Positions 3,556 to 24,347 of a stretch of DNA of 24,347 nucleotides are shown one piece after another. The DNA comes from a virus. The stretch lies in IMG/VR virus record IMGVR_UViG_3300042434_001157, positions 1 to 24,347 of that record; one strand, written 5' to 3'. A program made the translations under genes and the position numbers. Within the stretch, counting starts at the first letter, position 1. Each line of letters opens with the position of its first letter. Below the pieces are notes generated by a model. That model was not told the DNA's origin. It saw only the letters and a program-made list of their open reading frames with translations, and did no database searches.

Positions 3556-3593
3556 ATATAGCAAGATTTCATCATTTTGCCTACCGGTTCATA

Positions 3594-3607
3594 TATTTAT
3601 ATTTATA
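3594..3607 (+). promoter_or_regulatory. Two overlapping TATTTATA motifs, candidate promoter
   Basis: TATTTATA occurs at 3594-3601 and again at 3600-3607, directly before the ATG at 3607 of the homing endonuclease. This is the octamer seen upstream of several other + strand genes. If it acts as a -10 box, the transcript would be almost leaderless. Confidence 0.4.
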
Positions 3608-4404
3608 TGAAAACAAATTATGGAAACCCAATGTCAATAAATAAAATTTGCGAATGGACCGGTAAATCTTTTACTGTTGATTGGAAGCACAGAAATAAAA
3701 GATTCATAGATACAAAAGCAATGTATGCTTGGAGAAAATCGCAAAATCACGAAATTGTAAATTGCTTAAATTGCAATAAACCGTTTGACAGATATAAAAG
3801 AATACTACACCCAAGATCTGGAAAATTGCAGCAATATTGCTCAAATGAATGTAACAGAAGTTCAAAAGAAAAGAGAGAAAAACTTAAAATTTGGATAAAT
3901 GACAACAATCCTATGAAAGATCCAATCTCGGTTGAGAAAATATCAAAAACCAAACTAGAAAAATACGGAAATTATAAATACAACAACCCAGAAAAAGCTG
4001 CAAATACTTGTATGAAAAAATACGGAACCGCGTGCTATTTTGATAGCCCTTCTGCTATATTATCAAACGGAAAACGCATATCAAAGTTTCAAAAACAAAC
4101 GTATGATCTTGTTTTATTAAAATATCCAGATGCAGTTCTTGAAAAATATCTAAAAGACGTTCATTGTTCTGTGGACATTTATATACCTTCGATCAAAAAA
4201 GTAATTGAGTGCTATGGGGATTATTGGCATTGCAATCCTAAAAAATACAAATCAGATTATTATAATAAATCTTTGCGCATGACAGCAAAAGAAAAATGGG
4301 ACAAAGATGCCATTAAAACAAATAAGTTAATGTCGGTCGGTTACGATGTCGAGATAGTTTGGGAAAACTCAAAGAAAAAACTTGTGCATTCAACAAAACC
4401 GTGA
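3607..4404 (+). CDS. Homing endonuclease, EDxHD / Vsr-like family
   Basis: A 265-residue probable free-standing homing endonuclease, a selfish gene that cuts alleles lacking it. Residues 15-35 look like a degenerate first zinc finger, followed by a C-x2-C...C-x3-C finger (C53, C56, C78, C82). Two KYG-type repeats (about residues 99-155) resemble DNA-binding NUMOD-like units. The nuclease domain has D190 in VDIYIP and E201/H208 in IECYGDYWH, matching the Vsr-like EDxHD fold. The usual helix Glu before D190 appears to be Gln (Q162), so activity is in doubt. I chose ATG 3607 because it puts the first Cys at residue 15, as in the larger relative at 6834-8363. ATG 3631, with GGAA upstream, is the alternative; a TTG at 3577 is less likely. 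Confidence 0.82.
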   Translation: MKTNYGNPMSINKICEWTGKSFTVDWKHRNKRFIDTKAMYAWRKSQNHEIVNCLNCNKPFDRYKRILHPRSGKLQQYCSNECNRSSKEKREKLKIWINDNNPMKDPISVEKISKTKLEKYGNYKYNNPEKAANTCMKKYGTACYFDSPSAILSNGKRISKFQKQTYDLVLLKYPDAVLEKYLKDVHCSVDIYIPSIKKVIECYGDYWHCNPKKYKSDYYNKSLRMTAKEKWDKDAIKTNKLMSVGYDVEIVWENSKKKLVHSTKP

Positions 4405-4416: not shown

Positions 4417-4980
4417 ATGCATATACTCCTAAAAAATCTATTGAAAGAAGTAGAAGAAAAGTCTCCACTTAAATATCAAATGTATGTGGATATGGACGGA
4501 GTTCTTGTAAACCTTGATAAAGGATTCAAGGCAGTTTCTGGCGGATTATCTCCTCAAGACTATGAAGCAAAAAATGGCAAAAACACTTTTTGGAAAGTAG
4601 TAAATAAAAATCCTAATTTCTGGCTTGACCTAGAACCATTGCCAGACGCTAAAGTTCTTTGGGATTATATAAAAGATAGATTCAAAGATCCACCCGCTGT
4701 TGTACTGAGTGCAGGCATCGGCACAAAAATAAAAGAGCAGAAAACTGCATGGATACGCAAGCATATAGACCCAAGTGTTCAAGTTATTATTGCTTCGTCC
4801 GGCGTATCAAAGCCACAATATATCATTGATAGAGCGGATGTCAGACTTACTCATATACTACTTGATGATACAGACAAGAATATAACTGCTTGGGAAAATT
4901 CCGGTGAAAATAGAATTGCTATTTTACATAAAGATGCGGCGAGCAGCATAAATAAGATTAAACAGATTGTGTCTGTATGA
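4417..4980 (+). CDS. HAD-superfamily phosphatase, 5'(3')-deoxyribonucleotidase-like
   Basis: A 187-residue HAD-fold hydrolase, likely a soluble nucleotide phosphatase. Motif I is DMDGVL (nucleophile D25, acid/base D27), motif II is the Ser of VVLSAG (about residue 98), and motif IV is LLDDTDKN near residues 153-160, followed by the W-x2-SGE stretch typical of phage and bacterial 5'-nucleotidases. All expected catalytic acids are present. The first 15 residues (MHILLKNLLKEVEEK) form an extra amphipathic helix, loosely like the N-terminal motif of the proteins at 9.1-13.1 kb. The stop overlaps the next start as ATGA (4977-4980), so translation is probably coupled. The natural substrate cannot be read from the sequence. 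Confidence 0.8.
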   Translation: MHILLKNLLKEVEEKSPLKYQMYVDMDGVLVNLDKGFKAVSGGLSPQDYEAKNGKNTFWKVVNKNPNFWLDLEPLPDAKVLWDYIKDRFKDPPAVVLSAGIGTKIKEQKTAWIRKHIDPSVQVIIASSGVSKPQYIIDRADVRLTHILLDDTDKNITAWENSGENRIAILHKDAASSINKIKQIVSV

Positions 4981-5225
4981 ATCACGTTTCGCTAAAATCT
5001 TTGCTGCTAAAAGAACAATTTCATGTATCCGACATGGTTATGCTTGAAAAGGCGTGCAAGGCTTTTGCAGACGTATTAATAAAAAACAATATTGTAGCAC
5101 ATCAACATAAAGACCTTACAGCAGCAGATACTCCTATATCTCAGTATTCAGAAGATATAGCAGAAGTTGTTCGCAATGAAGTAATCAAATGGATGGATGT
5201 AGCAAACAGACGAGGTGGAAGATGA
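4977..5225 (+). CDS. Small unknown protein in HAD/nucleotidyltransferase operon
   Basis: An 82-residue protein that I do not recognise. It begins with a short hydrophobic-basic segment (SLKSLLLKE) and is otherwise mostly helical, with acidic and hydrophobic residues alternating. No catalytic motif, membrane segment or signal peptide is visible. It overlaps the upstream HAD gene by ATGA and the downstream nucleotidyltransferase by ATGA (5222-5225), so the three genes are almost certainly translated together. It may be a partner or adaptor of the nucleotidyltransferase; that is inference from coupling only. Confidence 0.7.
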   Translation: MNHVSLKSLLLKEQFHVSDMVMLEKACKAFADVLIKNNIVAHQHKDLTAADTPISQYSEDIAEVVRNEVIKWMDVANRRGGR

Positions 5226-6130
5226 ATTATCCTTTATACAACGACAAACTTGCTCCTATATGGAACATCAATGAAGATGGTGCGAGACTTGATGACGAAG
5301 TAAGAAAATCGCTCATCAAGATCGCGATGGATTTTGTGCAGGACTTAAAAAAGAACCAAGATATAAACATCAAGACAGAAGACATACTTCTTATTGGTTC
5401 TATTACCAATTATAACTGGACGCCATATTCAGATATTGATCTACATATATCAACTGATTTTTCCAAACTTGATATGAGCAAAGAAGACGCACAGGCGATG
5501 TTTGATGCGATTAAAACTGGTTGGAATAGCAAGCACGACATTGTGATGAAAAACTTTGATGTTGAGTTATATGTTGAAGATATAGGGGCAGAACAGGTAT
5601 CTGCATCAAAGTATAGTGTTCTACGAAACGAATGGATAAAAGAACCAAAGAAAGAAAGTCCAAACTTCAACAAGTCACTTATAAAAAAGAAGTATAAAGA
5701 GTACTCAAAGAAGATAGACGACTTGATGGATGCAGACAGCGAAAAGCCGCTAAAAGATTTACTTGACAAGATATACAAGTTTCGTCAAGCAGGATTAGAC
5801 AAGGGCGGCGAACTAAGTGAAGAAAATATTGTATTTAAGATACTAAGAGCAAAAGGTAAGTTAGATAAACTAAAAGACACTATATCGGCGATTTACGACG
5901 ATAAGATGAGTGTCGATGAAATCGCCATGAACAATAGTTATTATGAGAAGGATGTTCAAGACGCGGCAGATGATATATATGCGATTGCAAAAGCGTTAAA
6001 AGTATATCCAGATATTGAACCATATATCAAAAAGATATCATTAAAATACAAGAAGTATTCGGACGATGTGCATATAGACATCGCAAGGGCATTTTCAAAG
6101 CTTAGAAAACAACAAATAAAAACATCTTGA
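5222..6130 (+). CDS. Minimal nucleotidyltransferase-fold protein
   Basis: A 302-residue protein with a pol-beta-type nucleotidyltransferase core: G59-S60 followed by D71 and D73 in SDIDLH, with a third acid likely E115 in FDVELYV. This is the GS...DxD signature of enzymes that transfer a nucleotide to protein, RNA or a small molecule. Residues about 140-300 are helical, Lys-rich and of unknown role. From memory, similar proteins occur in other aquatic T4-like phages without a proven function. The start at 5222 is chosen for the GAGG at 5212-5215 and the ATGA overlap with the upstream gene; an upstream in-frame start at 5189 would lie deep inside that gene. The stop overlaps the promoter of the next gene. 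Confidence 0.82.
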   Translation: MNYPLYNDKLAPIWNINEDGARLDDEVRKSLIKIAMDFVQDLKKNQDINIKTEDILLIGSITNYNWTPYSDIDLHISTDFSKLDMSKEDAQAMFDAIKTGWNSKHDIVMKNFDVELYVEDIGAEQVSASKYSVLRNEWIKEPKKESPNFNKSLIKKKYKEYSKKIDDLMDADSEKPLKDLLDKIYKFRQAGLDKGGELSEENIVFKILRAKGKLDKLKDTISAIYDDKMSVDEIAMNNSYYEKDVQDAADDIYAIAKALKVYPDIEPYIKKISLKYKKYSDDVHIDIARAFSKLRKQQIKTS

Positions 6131-6160: not shown

Positions 6161-6850
6161 ATGCTAAAGAATATCAAGTTTGCCCGGTTTGGTGGGCTTA
6201 GTTCAGTCAATCAAAAGGGATATGATTCGAACTGTGATGGCTATCATTCTCCTCCCGCCAAGCGTGGCTTTTATGCGTTTCTTTGGCCGTATTATGAGTT
6301 CTTTCTTCTCAGCGGTGGATTATGGACAAACTATCCTTGGTCAATAGGCACCAAGTTCATTTACTTAAAAGACGCCAAGGGTAATATCATTGACGAAAAT
6401 CATCCTGATCATGAATACTTTTCCAGCACAGGAAAGTATTGGAGCATTCCCACCAAAGAATGGTATTTTCATCATAAGAAACATCCTGAATATGAAGACC
6501 CCGAATATGATGCTAAGTTGGAGGCACATTGTATTGATTGGGAAACAAATCACGGAGATAAGCCCAAGTGGGTGTTGGCTCAAAAGCCTTCGCCCAGAAT
6601 CTTTGAGTACAAAGGAAATATCTGGCATCATTTGACCTGCTATCTCGGACCTTCTGGTGCACTGAAGCAGAAAGGTGGTTGGACTCTTTCGCCATTTGAC
6701 GAATACGCAAAAGCATTACAAAAAAACATGCACGCTGGTCGCAGGACACAGTGCGAATACAATTCCAACAAAGGACTACCGAAGTCCAACAAAAATCCTT
6801 ATGTGGGAATATCCAAAGATCATCTGGAAGTTTTTATTGAGAAGTTGTAG
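6161..6850 (+). CDS. Conserved-looking phage protein of unknown function
   Basis: A 229-residue protein without a named family. It is unusually rich in aromatics and His: an N-terminal FARFGGLSS segment, a PPAKRGFYAFLWPYYEFFLL segment around residues 32-51, and many Trp, Tyr and His residues in the middle (for example WYFHHKKHPEYEDPEY and KGNIWHHLTCYL). The hydrophobic patch near residue 45 is too broken by charges and prolines to be a clear membrane span. I recall similar FGGLSS/RGFYAF proteins in other phages, without a known role. It starts at the predicted transcription start of its own promoter. Its last 17 nt overlap, tail to tail, the homing endonuclease on the other strand. It may be an independently expressed accessory gene. 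Confidence 0.75.
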   Translation: MLKNIKFARFGGLSSVNQKGYDSNCDGYHSPPAKRGFYAFLWPYYEFFLLSGGLWTNYPWSIGTKFIYLKDAKGNIIDENHPDHEYFSSTGKYWSIPTKEWYFHHKKHPEYEDPEYDAKLEAHCIDWETNHGDKPKWVLAQKPSPRIFEYKGNIWHHLTCYLGPSGALKQKGGWTLSPFDEYAKALQKNMHAGRRTQCEYNSNKGLPKSNKNPYVGISKDHLEVFIEKL

Positions 6851-8363
6851 AGCTTCTCCATATCCATTTTGTATGACCGCAATCCCATATACGGTCAAAT
6901 CCGTTCAGTTTCATATTTTCCCATTCAGATAAGTTGGGATCAAATGTTTTTAACTTTTTTGCCAGTTTAGATTTTTGGAACATCTGTCGGTTGAATACTG
7001 TACTAAAGTCGGGAGATACATAATGATAACCTTGTGCTGTATTTCCTTCAAAGGTCATTCCTAGCTTAGAATACAAGTCTCCAGAGAACAATCTGCGGTC
7101 AGAGTAGCTTACTACGCTCTTTGGCTTATAATCCAATAGGAATATACTAAACAACTTTGTTGCTCCACCGTGCACACGAGTATTCAACGCATTGCAGAAC
7201 CTTGATATTTCCCATTCAACTTTTCGGTCAAATCTACTTCTACAAAACGTCATTATGCTGACCAAGGAGTTTTTATAGTATAAGCCATATGCGACAGATG
7301 ATTTGTCCTCACCTTGCATATGACACTTGTTCAAGAACTCATTCTTTTCTTTGGTGTCTACTTTTCGTATTTCGCATTCTCGTCCGTGGATCTTGGCAAC
7401 GTGCCCGCCAACATACTGACGTATGATTGACTTTACAATATTCTGCTTATGCTTCCATTCGCTTTCAAGTATATGAATGAGGTGTATATTTTTCTCGGCA
7501 CACTTCTCAGTCTTTTCCAGATGATAGTTTTTTGACATTCTGGGATGGCTGGCTCTGTGCCAATACAACCCGTTATATTCTATAGCGAACGAAAGATCGG
7601 GGATGTAAAAATCAAGCTCCTTGCCATCCAACACAACTCTATTATTTCGTAGTATAGTTTTACCCTTTACTTCAGACACCAAGAACTCTTGCAAACCAGT
7701 TTCTGCGGTTTCTTTCTTTTCAGGATGGCATAGTTCACAGAACACATCTGTTGGCACATATACTGTAGACTCGAATCCATTATTACATTTTTTACAATTA
7801 AACTTGTATCTATGCGAGAAATGATAGCCCGCATAGTCCTCTTGTTTGCATAACCACTTTACATTTTGCGAATTAAACAGAGTTTTTAGTTTTTCATAAT
7901 GGTTCTCTTGTTTGAGTTTACTTCGTTTTTGTATAACATCTCTAGATTTGCCGGGATTGTCCACACCGTACTTTTCAATCCAAGTTTCCATTATCCGCTG
8001 TCTTACAGGACTTTTTGACGACAATACATTTTCTACACCATAGTTTTGTACATTGGTATATTTGGCTTTATCAAGTATAGCTTTTGATTGCAATGCGTGT
8101 TCTACACCATATTTGGTCATCATAGAGTTCTTGAAATTATTTACAACTTCAGAAGTCTTCATAGGATGATCCGTGCCGTACTTTTTTAGTGAGGTTTCTA
8201 CCTGCGACGCTCGCATTTTTGCTAACACTTCTGGGTCTTTGTTAGAACAAGATTTACAGCAATACTTCTGCTTGTTTCGTTTCTGCCATTTCACTCTGAA
8301 ATCTGTATTGCAAGTTTTACATTTTAGCTCTACAAAGTCTGGGTTTTTCTTGGGTCTGGCCAT
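6834..8363 (-). CDS. Large homing endonuclease, EDxHD type with KYG repeats and C-terminal domain
   Basis: A 509-residue selfish endonuclease on the strand opposite to all neighbours. Domains in order: a zinc finger (C15, C18, C36, C39); four KYG/NYG repeats at about residues 61, 84, 107 and 131, likely DNA-binding; a second zinc finger (C190, C193, C209, C212); a Vsr-like nuclease core with E226, D251 in LDFYIP, and E262/H269 in IEYNGLYWH; and a C-terminal domain (about 355-505) of the type found in Hef-like phage homing endonucleases, with VVSYSDRRLFSGDLYSKLGM. All expected catalytic residues are visible. It is related in architecture to the smaller enzyme at 3607-4404. It sits between the unknown gene at 6161 and the tail tube gene. 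Confidence 0.88.
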   Translation of the reverse strand: MARPKKNPDFVELKCKTCNTDFRVKWQKRNKQKYCCKSCSNKDPEVLAKMRASQVETSLKKYGTDHPMKTSEVVNNFKNSMMTKYGVEHALQSKAILDKAKYTNVQNYGVENVLSSKSPVRQRIMETWIEKYGVDNPGKSRDVIQKRSKLKQENHYEKLKTLFNSQNVKWLCKQEDYAGYHFSHRYKFNCKKCNNGFESTVYVPTDVFCELCHPEKKETAETGLQEFLVSEVKGKTILRNNRVVLDGKELDFYIPDLSFAIEYNGLYWHRASHPRMSKNYHLEKTEKCAEKNIHLIHILESEWKHKQNIVKSIIRQYVGGHVAKIHGRECEIRKVDTKEKNEFLNKCHMQGEDKSSVAYGLYYKNSLVSIMTFCRSRFDRKVEWEISRFCNALNTRVHGGATKLFSIFLLDYKPKSVVSYSDRRLFSGDLYSKLGMTFEGNTAQGYHYVSPDFSTVFNRQMFQKSKLAKKLKTFDPNLSEWENMKLNGFDRIWDCGHTKWIWRSSTTSQ

Positions 8364-20063: not shown

Positions 20064-22370
20064 ATGAGCAACGTAACTGTAGTACCGTGGGGATTGCATC
20101 CACTATCACCGTGGGTAGTAGATGAGCTTAAACGAAGGGCACGAGAATATGGGCAAAACCCTACCCCGACAGAAGCTAAACCATATAGTGGACCGAGAAC
20201 TGCATGGGCGAGATTTTTTTCAAATGGGATATCTTCGCTACCAGATGCTAAAGGTAAAGACGGTTTTGTTTTGGGAGGAACATACGGGTTTAATGAAAGT
20301 TATGGATTTAACGCAGATGGAAAAATTACTATAGGAGTAGACGCAAGGGGAAATCCACATCAAATACCGTTTGATAAATCTTCTGCTCTTGGACCAAACC
20401 AACAATTAAAACAGAGAACGGATTTTCCACACCGTCCACCACCTAGCTTAGAGTCGGTGTCTTGTGAATTCAGCGGAACAAATTCTAGTTTCCCCAGCTT
20501 ATGTAGAAAAATAACCATAAATTGGAAATGTTATTCTCTCGCGCAATTGAATTATCTTATTCCATATTTTTTAACTCCGAGAATAACTTGTTTAATTGAA
20601 TGGGGATGGAACAATTATGATACAGTATCATTAGTAGATTTGACCGACCTAGACTGGATAAATCAAATGTTTGTTGACCCAAGTTATACGCTCGAATATA
20701 TAAAAAAATCCAACGGAAATTATGACGCTGGGCTGGGGTTTATCGTAGATTACGGGTTTAAGATGAATGATAATGGTGGATATGACTGTCATACTACATT
20801 AATTAATGCAAATAAACTTATAGAAGGCGAACAAATCGCAAACAAAGATGTTACCATAAAACAGCAACAGGACTATCTTTCGGTAAAAAGTTTTCATTCT
20901 TTTGCAAACGATAACATGAAAAACATAGATTCTAAGGAAGATAAGTATAAACAACTAAGAAAAGAATTGAGGATCGGTGACAAGACCTTTGAAGAAGAAA
21001 AAAGAGTATTTAGAATACAAGATACTCCGATATCAAAGAATACTCCAAATTTTTGGTTGAGGATGGATTTAGTACAGGACATAATTAATGCATTTTTTAA
21101 AATTGAAATGCGTGGAACGCAAAATGCAATTATACGTGAACTTGATATATTGGAAACGAGAGTTTGCGCAAATCCGTTATTGAAATCGGCCAACACGAAT
21201 GTATTGGTACCAAATAGGTATGCTCCTAGGTTTGTATTTGAAGAAAATAAAGGTGAAGGCACAGCCAATAATTATAAACCAGAAGATGAAAAATATAACC
21301 TTCTGTTTAAAGATAAAGTAGAAGATATCTTAAAAGAATATTATTTAGACACAACAAAATTTGACAATTTGCAAGAAATAATAAATCCAAATGGAGAATC
21401 ATTTCCGGTGTATCGAGACGAGCAAGTTCTTGATTCTGACGGCAAGGTTGCGCAAAATCTAAAAGCGGGATATTGGGGACTTCTAAAAGATTTATTTATA
21501 AATGAAGAATATTTTAGAGCGCTGGTTAAAAAAAATGATTCCGTATTAAAACTAATAGAAGAACTGTTGCAAGGAATAAACCAGTCATTATGCCAGATAT
21601 GTCAACTTAAACTAATACCCGCCGAATATGGAAACAGAAAATATTCCGTTTATGACGAAAATTTGCCAGGTATAGCCGTAAAAAATGATGCAAAAAATTT
21701 GCCAATAATAACTCTTGGTGCGATAGATTCTGCATTTTTGCGAGCCGCGTCGTTTGATGTAAAGCTTAGTTCGGAAATGATGAATCAGTTGGTAATGCAA
21801 AGTGCAAACCCGGAACAAGATCCAGATGGATCCACGCAGACAAAAAATGTCGCTGCTACACCTATAGTAAGCAGGTATTCCGCAGGAGACAGATTATATA
21901 GAAAAGGAGAACTACCAACGGTGGTTGTATCGGGAAATACTCCATCTGAAAGTGCCGTTGATGCTCATATCAAAAAACAGGACGAACTTGTAAAGAAACG
22001 TCAAACTCGCAGCAATAAAAACAAAAATGCTTTTTATGTATATTATGCACAAGATAAAAATAACCCAAAGAAAGATCTAGAATATTTTATATGTGAAAAA
22101 AATTCTACATTTTTGAATTATATCTTGAAACTGCCAAATAAAAAATCTCCATACTTGAATAATGCAATAATGCCAGGAACCACACTGACGTTGGAACTAT
22201 TGGGAATATCGGGTGTAAACTATCTTTCTCAATTTTTGATAGACCATGCACCAGAAGCATATAATTTTGAAAATGCGGTATGGCAAATATCAGATGTCAA
22301 GCAAAATATTGAAGATAAAATGTGGATTACTACACTAGTTGCACAGGTAAGACCACTCACAGTATTATGA
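20064..22370 (+). CDS. Large baseplate structural protein, exact role unknown
   Basis: A 768-residue protein in the baseplate block. Residues about 128-190 (HRPPPSLESVSCEFSG...FPSLCRKITINWKCYSLAQLNYLIPYFLTPRITCLIEWGWNNYD) form a recognisable unit that I recall from baseplate hub or wedge proteins of other myoviruses, where PPP...S.. is followed by a LIEWG strand. The C-terminal region (about 690-768) contains a beta pattern: YLNNAIMPGTTLTLELLGISGVNYLSQFLIDHAPEAYN...WQISDVKQNI...MWITTLVAQVRPL. It has no signal or membrane segment and no catalytic motif. The stop overlaps the next start as ATGA (22367-22370). A gp27-like hub role is possible but unproven. Confidence 0.68.
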   Translation: MSNVTVVPWGLHPLSPWVVDELKRRAREYGQNPTPTEAKPYSGPRTAWARFFSNGISSLPDAKGKDGFVLGGTYGFNESYGFNADGKITIGVDARGNPHQIPFDKSSALGPNQQLKQRTDFPHRPPPSLESVSCEFSGTNSSFPSLCRKITINWKCYSLAQLNYLIPYFLTPRITCLIEWGWNNYDTVSLVDLTDLDWINQMFVDPSYTLEYIKKSNGNYDAGLGFIVDYGFKMNDNGGYDCHTTLINANKLIEGEQIANKDVTIKQQQDYLSVKSFHSFANDNMKNIDSKEDKYKQLRKELRIGDKTFEEEKRVFRIQDTPISKNTPNFWLRMDLVQDIINAFFKIEMRGTQNAIIRELDILETRVCANPLLKSANTNVLVPNRYAPRFVFEENKGEGTANNYKPEDEKYNLLFKDKVEDILKEYYLDTTKFDNLQEIINPNGESFPVYRDEQVLDSDGKVAQNLKAGYWGLLKDLFINEEYFRALVKKNDSVLKLIEELLQGINQSLCQICQLKLIPAEYGNRKYSVYDENLPGIAVKNDAKNLPIITLGAIDSAFLRAASFDVKLSSEMMNQLVMQSANPEQDPDGSTQTKNVAATPIVSRYSAGDRLYRKGELPTVVVSGNTPSESAVDAHIKKQDELVKKRQTRSNKNKNAFYVYYAQDKNNPKKDLEYFICEKNSTFLNYILKLPNKKSPYLNNAIMPGTTLTLELLGISGVNYLSQFLIDHAPEAYNFENAVWQISDVKQNIEDKMWITTLVAQVRPLTVL

Positions 22371-22756
22371 TATACAATCAAACATTACCTAGTCAGTACG
22401 GCACGTTTCCAGAGATTGGTGAAATAACAAATATTTTAATCACCAAACCAAAACCATCCCCCGAAGATTATAACAAGGGATATATTACTCGCGTATTTGT
22501 AAAAAAGATAAATGAAAACGTGATTAATGAAATATCTTATGTGGATAAATCTTCTATTAATTTAAATTTGTATAAAACAGTCCAAGTAAAGTGGAAAATT
22601 ACTGGACCAAAGAATAACATATATAAAGGCAACATTCTTGACAAAGCTGGCGTAACTGAGCAAAATAGGTTTGAGATAGATAGAATAAAAAAAGAAGAAG
22701 GTATAGATCTTTCTGGAGTATTGAACAACCCGCTTGAGTATTGGAGAGGTAACTAA
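22367..22756 (+). CDS. Small tail/baseplate-associated protein of unknown function
   Basis: A 129-residue protein that I cannot name. The central part (TNILITKPKPSPEDYNKGYITRVFVKKINENVINEISYVDKSS) and KWKITGPKNNIYKGNILDKAGVTEQNRFEIDRI contain charged helices and short strands. The YKGYI.R.F..K and GV.EQNR segments resemble small structural proteins in other T4-like phages, but this is memory-based. The start is set by the ATGA overlap with the preceding gene; an upstream in-frame start (22322) would lie within that gene. Coupled expression with the large baseplate protein is likely. Confidence 0.72.
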   Translation: MIYNQTLPSQYGTFPEIGEITNILITKPKPSPEDYNKGYITRVFVKKINENVINEISYVDKSSINLNLYKTVQVKWKITGPKNNIYKGNILDKAGVTEQNRFEIDRIKKEEGIDLSGVLNNPLEYWRGN

Positions 22757-22762
22757 AATAAG

Positions 22763-22790
22763 TTGACATTGTTCGCAGATATGCCATATT
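22763..22790 (+). promoter_or_regulatory. Extended -10 sigma70-like promoter, apparently leaderless
   Basis: TTGACA (22763-22768), a 16-nt spacer ending TGC, and the -10 box CATATT (22785-22790). The GTG start of the polymerase gene at 22797 lies 6 nt further on, exactly where transcription should begin. The distance from -35 box to start codon (28 nt) and the TGn before the -10 box are the same as at 6127-6154. Confidence 0.6.
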
Positions 22791-22796
22791 GCTCAT

Positions 22797-24164
22797 GTGC
22801 ATATTGTAGAAACAACCGAAGACTATAACAATCTGTGTTCAATCATAAACTCTGAACACGTTTATATCAGTGCTGTTTGTTTGGATAATCAAAAGCATGT
22901 GTCCAACAACAACATATCACTATTATTCTTCTACTTTTATGTCAGCGACGACTATTGGTGTTTGCCCATAGATCATAACGAGTGCATCTGCTTGGATAAT
23001 ATTCTTGAGAGCGTCAAGGTTGTATTGCGTAATGCCAAGTTTCATAACAAGATAGTTTCGGACAAGAAGAATATTGTTCAGTTGTTTGGCGAGGATTATA
23101 ACTTCATAGACATAGATGTGTTTAGATTTCTTGAGAATGGCCAACTGCCGTCTGAAATTGAGACGACCAACTCGCACAGTTTCATTGATTTTCATTTCAA
23201 GAATATGTTTGATCTGAACAAGTGTGTGCCGGTATATAAGCACGCCAAAGTATTCACCAATAATGTTCAGAAGATAAAGAACATATACTTGTCTAATATT
23301 CGCGAGAAGGGATTTGTATTCACCAACAATGTTATGACTGACTTGTTTGCCAAGTTAGAGTCAAATGGATTGTGCGTGAATGAAGATTTTACTGATATTT
23401 TCGGCGAGGAACAAAATCGCCATATCAAAAACAATTTTGTATTTTCGCAATACAACCTGCTTACATCAACTGGCAGACCCTCTAATAGATTTGGCGGCGT
23501 CAATTATGCGGCGTTGAATAAGAATGATGGTAGCAGAAACTGCTTTGTAAGCAGATATGGCGACGATGGTATGCTTGTGATGATGGACTATAATGCGTTT
23601 CATCCGCGTCTTATTGCTCACTTATCCAACTTCCAAATGGACGCCGCTGAAAATCCATACGCATATCTATCCAAGTATTATTTCAACAAGTCCAATATAA
23701 CCGACGAAGATATTGCTGTCGCTAAAGGATTTACATTTACACAGATATATGGCGGCATTGATAAGAAATGGATACATATTCCATATCTAAAGAAGGTGCA
23801 GGAATATATTGACCATCGCTGGAAGTTCTTTGAGGAAAATGGATATATAGAAACGCCAAAGTATGGCAGAAAAATCAAACATTGTCATATTCAAGATCCT
23901 ACTCCCAATAAACTATTCAACTATATACTACAGGCGTTTGAGACAGAAATGGCAGTAGATGTGCTTGGCGAACTAATGAATTATCTAAATGATAAACAAA
24001 CCAAGCCGGTGCTATATACATACGATAGCATATTGTTTGATGCTCATAAAAGCGATAAGATGCCTGTTATAAAAAGAATAAAGAGCATAATGGAACGCGA
24101 CAAGTTTCCGGTAAAAGTATATGCAGGCAAGAATTATGGTGATATGAAACAGATCTCTATATAA
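22797..24164 (+). CDS. Degenerate family A DNA polymerase-like protein
   Basis: A 455-residue protein with the palm/fingers signature of family A (Pol I) polymerases. Residues 223-230 hold TSTGRPSN. Motif A is MMDYNAFHPRLIAHL (D264). Motif B is AVAKGFTFTQIYGG (K310, Y318, G319). Motif C is LYTYDSILFD (D410). Both catalytic aspartates are present, but by hand alignment with Klenow, E710 is His (H269), R754 is Ile (I306), H881 is Tyr (Y409) and E883 is Ser (S411). The N-terminal 160 residues look like a 3'-5' exonuclease fold without its acidic residues. It is shorter than Pol I. The GTG start at 22797 fits the promoter; an ATG at 22795 runs into a stop. It is placed oddly among baseplate genes. 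Confidence 0.8.
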   Translation: MHIVETTEDYNNLCSIINSEHVYISAVCLDNQKHVSNNNISLLFFYFYVSDDYWCLPIDHNECICLDNILESVKVVLRNAKFHNKIVSDKKNIVQLFGEDYNFIDIDVFRFLENGQLPSEIETTNSHSFIDFHFKNMFDLNKCVPVYKHAKVFTNNVQKIKNIYLSNIREKGFVFTNNVMTDLFAKLESNGLCVNEDFTDIFGEEQNRHIKNNFVFSQYNLLTSTGRPSNRFGGVNYAALNKNDGSRNCFVSRYGDDGMLVMMDYNAFHPRLIAHLSNFQMDAAENPYAYLSKYYFNKSNITDEDIAVAKGFTFTQIYGGIDKKWIHIPYLKKVQEYIDHRWKFFEENGYIETPKYGRKIKHCHIQDPTPNKLFNYILQAFETEMAVDVLGELMNYLNDKQTKPVLYTYDSILFDAHKSDKMPVIKRIKSIMERDKFPVKVYAGKNYGDMKQISI

Positions 24165-24210: not shown

Positions 24211-24347
24211 ATGGAAAAAAGTAAGATTATAGAGTATGTTCTCAATGAATGGGCGATGCGTTCGCCAGATGGTTTGGCGAGTGGACATGACACCCCAGAA
24301 AATATTTCTATATTAAATGAAATACTGGCAGAACGAGATGAGATCAA
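24211..24347 (+). CDS. Start of a small protein, cut by the window end
   Basis: The reading frame is open from ATG 24211 to the window end: 45 complete codons and two bases of the next. It begins MEKSKIIEYVLNEWAMRSPDGL, followed by a Thr/Pro/Glu-containing stretch and a helix (ILNEILAERDEI). The EWAxRxxDG element followed by a spacer and a leucine-rich helix is a small module that I recall from aquatic phage proteins, without a known role. The N-terminus KSxIIxxVLNE also recalls the cassette motif at 9.1-13.1 kb. The frame follows a TATTTATA motif at the 4-nt spacing seen twice elsewhere, which supports the start. Confidence 0.6.
   Translation, partial: MEKSKIIEYVLNEWAMRSPDGLASGHDTPENISILNEILAERDEI

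Follow-up and report, generated by a model that had tools for sequence, protein, structure and literature searches.

A divPolA1-type polymerase-like gene with an invariant histidine at the steric-gate position heads a phage replication-recombination module

We analyzed a stretch of viral DNA of 24,347 nucleotides (IMG/VR record IMGVR_UViG_3300042434_001157, positions 1 to 24,347), referred to here as the window. Near its end lies a gene that an earlier, sequence-only reading had described as a degenerate family A polymerase in the baseplate block. The features of this region are as follows.

20064 to 22370, + strand: large baseplate-block protein in the position of gp6; a relative lies upstream in 168 of 173 loci
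22322 to 22756, + strand: small conserved protein of 144 amino acids (aa), immediately upstream of the polymerase gene (locus comparison)
22763 to 22791, + strand: sigma-70-like promoter, with TTGACA at 22763 to 22768 and a weak -10-like CATATTG at about 22785 to 22791
22797 to 24164, + strand: divPolA1-type family A polymerase-like gene, 455 aa, GTG start
22797 to 23200, + strand: vestigial 3′-5′ exonuclease-like domain, residues about 1 to 135 (AlphaFold2 secondary structure and family alignment columns)
23475 to 23477, + strand: R227, equivalent to Klenow R668, invariant
23586 to 23603, + strand: motif A, DYNAFH, with catalytic D264 (D705 in the Klenow alignment) and H269 (steric gate E710), both invariant
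23712 to 23753, + strand: motif B (O helix), with I306 (R754, lost), K310 (K758), F314 (F762) and Y318-G319 (Y766-G)
24021 to 24029, + strand: motif C, Y409-D410-S411, equivalent to Klenow H881-D882-E883; Y and D invariant, third residue Ser or Ala
24211 to 24347, + strand: beginning of the following gene, which runs past the window end; relative of a 512-aa protein of contig G001 (related contigs)

No family match was found for the large upstream protein, which is called gp6-like by position alone, or for the 144-aa protein. Elsewhere in the window, the tail block holds two homing-endonuclease-like open reading frames (ORFs) (3577 to 4404, + strand; 6834 to 8363, − strand). A 5′-deoxyribonucleotidase-like gene and a nucleotidyltransferase-like gene (phrog_36119), at 4417 to 4980 and 5189 to 6130 on the + strand, stand between the tail sheath and tail tube genes.

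The polymerase ORF is real, with GTG at 22797 and a stop codon at 24162 to 24164. Its 455-aa product matched phrog_17 DNA polymerase (E = 2e-17) and, by phmmer, Klenow chains (E of about 0.003); the Pfam DNA_pol_A score was 33.1 bits, slightly below the cut-off of 34.3. An AlphaFold2 model made with 26 family members as input (pLDDT, 90.4; pTM, 0.86) had Klenow as its best PDB fold match (E = 1.4e-19), and the best 50 fold matches listed were DNA polymerases only. Profile comparison with T7 RNA polymerase (hhalign) gave no significant similarity (E = 0.48). The protein has the family A fold, motifs 1, A, B and C, the two catalytic aspartates, and the Lys and Tyr of the O helix; the steric-gate Glu characteristic of the family (E710 in motif A) is replaced by His. 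Despite this change at the gate, the fold and remaining motifs still place the protein in a divergent branch of the family A superfamily.

That branch has been described. By tblastn, the protein is homologous over most of its length to gp1 of Flavobacterium phage vB_FspM_immuto (E = 6e-43; 29% identity), and a common alignment including the immuto homologue has 34 invariant columns. The text of Yutin et al. (2024, Virol J 21:200; PMC11348598) describes a family, divPolA1, in 14 phages including immuto: the polymerase residues are kept, the thumb is truncated, the exonuclease is inactivated, replication genes follow, and elsewhere there is a regular polymerase, which may belong to family A, B or C. 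In the view given there, divPolA1 probably retains polymerase activity. Besides its homology to immuto gp1, the window protein has its exonuclease aspartates replaced, and replication genes lie downstream; a regular polymerase is co-encoded in related records (ten of at least 119 kb and the contig G006). We concluded that the gene belongs to divPolA1 and that the window protein is a new member. Many large phages of aquatic settings have this small second polymerase beside their replication genes.

From alignments by eye, the sequence-only reading had held that the catalytic aspartates D264 and D410 and the Lys and Tyr of motif B remain, and that the equivalents of Klenow E710, R754, H881 and E883 are changed to His, Ile, Tyr and Ser. 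We aligned the protein with Klenow, T7 gp5, the second immuto PolA and an SPO1-like polymerase (Goe26), and each of these assignments was confirmed. The multiple alignment showed D705 (D264), K758 (K310), F762 (F314), Y766 (Y318) and D882 (D410) to be kept, as were R668 (R227), N845 (N375) and Q849 (Q379). E710 (H269), R754 (I306), H881 (Y409) and E883 (S411) are replaced; an alignment restoring E710, R754 and E883, which would have told against the reading, was not obtained. Between the equivalents of Y766 and N845, the fingers have 55 to 57 residues (56 in the window protein), versus 79 in Klenow.

The same reading had found the exonuclease part to be without acidic residues, and for the catalytic acids this agrees with the inspected alignment. 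Because the hhalign comparison with Klenow spanned polymerase residues 211 to 449 only and stops short of the exonuclease part, the mapping of that part rests on the inspected alignment and on the published legend and text. The catalytic acids are absent as judged from alignment columns and motif mapping by inspection, rather than by structural superposition. For two other divPolA1 members, a published structure-guided alignment has all three exonuclease catalytic aspartates replaced, according to the accompanying text (PMC11348598).

R754 of Klenow touches the nucleotide triphosphate. E710 is described as the steric gate of Klenow (PMC13228545; PMC9324360) and as universally conserved in A-family polymerases (PMC4882331). 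The polymerase of phage Tt72, an active enzyme, has Ser at the E883 position (PMC9324360); hence, the change of E883 to Ser is not diagnostic of inactivity, and we dropped it as a sign of such.

A single protein query found 79 related IMG/VR contigs, an alignment as query gave at least 472 matching stretches, and the immuto homologue gave 312. Our main comparison set comprised 124 distinct full-length sequences, with pairwise identity down to 23% (median, 30%). D264, H269, K310, F314, Y318, G319, Y409, D410, R227 and Q379 were unchanged in all 124, and N375 was near-invariant. Position 411 was Ser or Ala; the R754 position was Tyr, Ile, Val or Leu, and Arg in none. For the pairs in which it was computable, dN/dS of the polymerase was 0.05 to 0.11, about 0.06. 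In 45 further distinct sequences, reached through SSB or UvsX genes (see below), D264, H269, K310 and Y318 were each present in 44 of 44, and Y409 and D410 in 45 of 45. The word "degenerate" thus does not fit a gene under such strong purifying selection with invariant active-site residues, and a pseudogene is ruled out on the same grounds. The alternative that had been offered, a special polymerase, and the changed sugar gate are supported; H269 is fixed in 124 of 124 and 44 of 44 sequences. We infer that the fixed His in place of E710, the lost R754 and the shorter fingers together indicate a nucleotide site rebuilt under selection, not a loss of function.

Inactivity had also been suggested. 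A catalytically dead scaffold or replisome regulator is favored by the loss of E710, R754, H881, E883 and the exonuclease acids, but the two-metal aspartates and the equivalents of K758, Y766 and R668 are kept in all of about 170 distinct sequences. We consider such a dead protein improbable.

Since relatives should not be picked by the polymerase itself, we also fetched loci with two independent baits, SSB from contig G001 and UvsX from phage Mel-JY01. Of the SSB loci, 37 extend at least 4.4 kb upstream, and all of these have the polymerase in that stretch. So do 19 of 22 UvsX loci; in the remaining three, the region ahead of SSB seems expanded, and the polymerase may be out of reach. Among GenBank phages, clear members were found only in four immuto records, Mel-JY01 and LR756508. 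When bacterial and archaeal genomes were scanned, only three MAG contigs matched, one of them weakly, and we rejected the idea of a host gene.

Across loci, the gene order is large baseplate protein, small protein, polymerase, a protein of about 131 aa, gp32-like SSB, UvsX, 5′-3′ exonuclease and gp41/DnaB-like helicase. For loci with at least 7.5 kb downstream (n = 33), the 131-aa protein, SSB, UvsX and exonuclease follow on one strand in every case, and the helicase, on the same strand, in 31. The SSB-to-helicase genes of the window lie past its end and were seen in near-identical contigs. Given this fixed order, the gene opens a replication-recombination module and is not a stray in the baseplate block. 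Recent acquisition, read earlier from the location and the promoter, is ruled out by the fixed synteny (33 of 33 and 37 of 37 loci).

Two observations concern the genes downstream. The protein of about 131 to 151 aa between polymerase and SSB, present in 33 of 33 loci (e.g., 11864 to 12259 of L152), has no family match. In T4, genes 59 and 33 lie in the neighborhood of gene 32, and for this reason the protein could possibly be a helicase loader or a late-transcription factor. In contig G001 at 44438 to 47414 (L112 and L152), the gp41/DnaB-like helicase is in two ORFs with a DUF559/MTES_1575-type endonuclease between them, and the second half has a HINT/intein-like stretch; the arrangement resembles a fractured gene carrying a split intein. 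The endonuclease within this split helicase has a phrog_22677 domain in common with the window ORF at 3577 to 4404.

The polymerase gene had been credited with its own promoter, and comparison bears this out. Of 49 distinct upstream sequences, 47 have a TTGAC between positions −45 and −28 relative to the start codon (shuffled mean, 0.7), and in 43 it sits at −34 or −35; the -10-like CATATTG was called by inspection. The start codon is GTG in 40 of these sequences and ATG in 9, and a Shine-Dalgarno-like motif occurs in 1 of the 49. With this promoter spacing, transcription would begin on the GTG or right beside it, so that the polymerase mRNA is probably leaderless. G001 (IMGVR_UViG_3300023184_000026; 297 kb) has this layout at 46 of 314 ORFs, an enrichment over the control value of 13; the primase gene is among them, and examples lie at 36051, 110641, 157603, 172207 and 249067. 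Being enriched phage-wide in G001, the layout marks a promoter class and is no sign of acquisition. In G001, there is probably a phage-wide class of leaderless genes whose predicted transcription start is the start codon. A literature search by the terms tried found no paper on leaderless early phage promoters.

A check for another complete polymerase had been proposed, and each of the ten records that reach 119 kb has one, of family A or B; the two long records lacking it, 97 and 114 kb in size, are fragments. Among the first seven long contigs, six carry a family B polymerase of about 850 aa, with an exonuclease domain in that of G001, the one scanned; one of the six is the 68-kb contig G006, whose divPolA1 is 100% identical to that of the window. 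Mel-JY01 and LR756508 also carry a family B polymerase. In immuto and its relatives, the other enzyme is a full family A polymerase of about 780 aa (gp71 in immuto). In LR756508.1 (260623 to 266900), the family B polymerase is spread over two open frames of 1022 and 625 aa, several kb apart; an intein or inserted genes may interrupt it. A DnaG/gp61-like primase, a relative of the immuto DnaG-like primase, was found in all four large genomes tested (immuto, Mel-JY01, LR756508 and G001). This rules out divPolA1 as the sole primase; the idea of a special polymerase for priming is thereby weakened. With a replicase and a primase also encoded, divPolA1 is unlikely to be essential for copying, but this singles out no other specific role.

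These data bear on whether divPolA1 might itself be the main replicative polymerase, with the swappable "regular" polymerase as the accessory. DivPolA1 sits in the constant replication module, and the other polymerase differs between lineages, being of family A in immuto-like phages and of family B elsewhere (family A, B or C among published members, according to the text of PMC11348598). However, divPolA1 has no proofreading site, truncated fingers and an altered gate, whereas the other polymerase has polymerase and exonuclease domains. We give this arrangement little credence.

The reading that we favor, with somewhat better than even confidence, is that divPolA1 serves the replication-recombination module of large T4-like phages as an accessory polymerase, active but without proofreading. 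Its partners would be the 5′-3′ exonuclease and the helicase, whose genes lie just downstream of its own, and its task would be to fill gaps or extend primer ends on SSB- and UvsX-coated intermediates. Copying of the genome would fall to another, complete polymerase of family A or B. Both the catalytic activity and the repair or primer-processing role are predicted from sequence comparison; inactivity appears unlikely, given the invariant active-site residues. With R754 lost and about 23 finger residues missing, the enzyme might work poorly or take an unusual substrate. Since the second polymerase is fixed while the main one changes family between lineages, an accessory enzyme, and not the replicase, would be the constant part of the module.

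Relaxed sugar selection by divPolA1 (dNTP versus rNTP, through His269) is possible. A stronger version, in which divPolA1 uses rNTPs in vivo for RNA synthesis or for extension of mixed RNA/DNA primers (much as Pol alpha extends primase products), seems unlikely to us. In its favor, the rNTP-excluding E710 of Klenow is His in every divPolA1 member examined, and E710 is described as universally conserved in the A family (PMC4882331). Against this, F314 and Y318 are kept, the bulky His may itself serve as a gate, a dedicated primase is present, and similarity was to DNA polymerases (the best 50 fold matches) and not significantly to the T7 RNA polymerase profile. Still more speculatively, the clade may have swapped the gate Glu for an obligatory His in a nucleotide site rebuilt with loss of R754 and part of the fingers, and may naturally use rNTPs, or both sugars, in making or extending primers for recombination-dependent replication. 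In this widespread and strongly conserved phage clade, the His is invariant and R754 is absent, so that natural sugar selection in the family A fold can be tested directly with one protein of about 450 residues.

The invariant E710-to-His change, the lost R754, the shorter fingers and the conserved promoter are apparently unreported in the text of PMC11348598; the gate change may show in its figure alignment. Our literature search found no later paper on divPolA1 and none on phage Mel-JY01. Immuto gp1, like the window protein, has a truncated thumb region, a dead exonuclease, the catalytic aspartates, the same downstream genes and a regular polymerase alongside. The two branches differ in motif C (YDS in the window branch, YDA in immuto) and motif A (FHP versus YHL). 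DivPolA1 occurs here in larger phages, G001 with 297 kb and LR756508 with 484 kb, versus the 155 to 190 kb given in the published text (PMC11348598).

Klenow, or bacterial DNA polymerase I, and T7 gp5 have the family A fold and motifs 1, A, B and C in common with divPolA1. In contrast to these enzymes, divPolA1 has E710, R754, H881, E883 and the exonuclease acids replaced, fingers about 23 residues shorter and a short thumb. DivPolA2 of barbaviruses and vibriophages (AUR84708) is likewise a second divergent family A polymerase without exonuclease, but by inspection it keeps the gate Glu (DFKAFE) and has motif C FDE, and its gene context differs according to the text of PMC11348598. With the gate Glu kept and no significant profile match, we rejected it as a relative of divPolA1. 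Tt72 PolA (PMC9324360) and the SPO1-like Goe26 polymerase have Ser for E883, as in the window protein. Unlike divPolA1, both keep the gate Glu, the Goe26 polymerase keeps R754, and Tt72 PolA has an active exonuclease.
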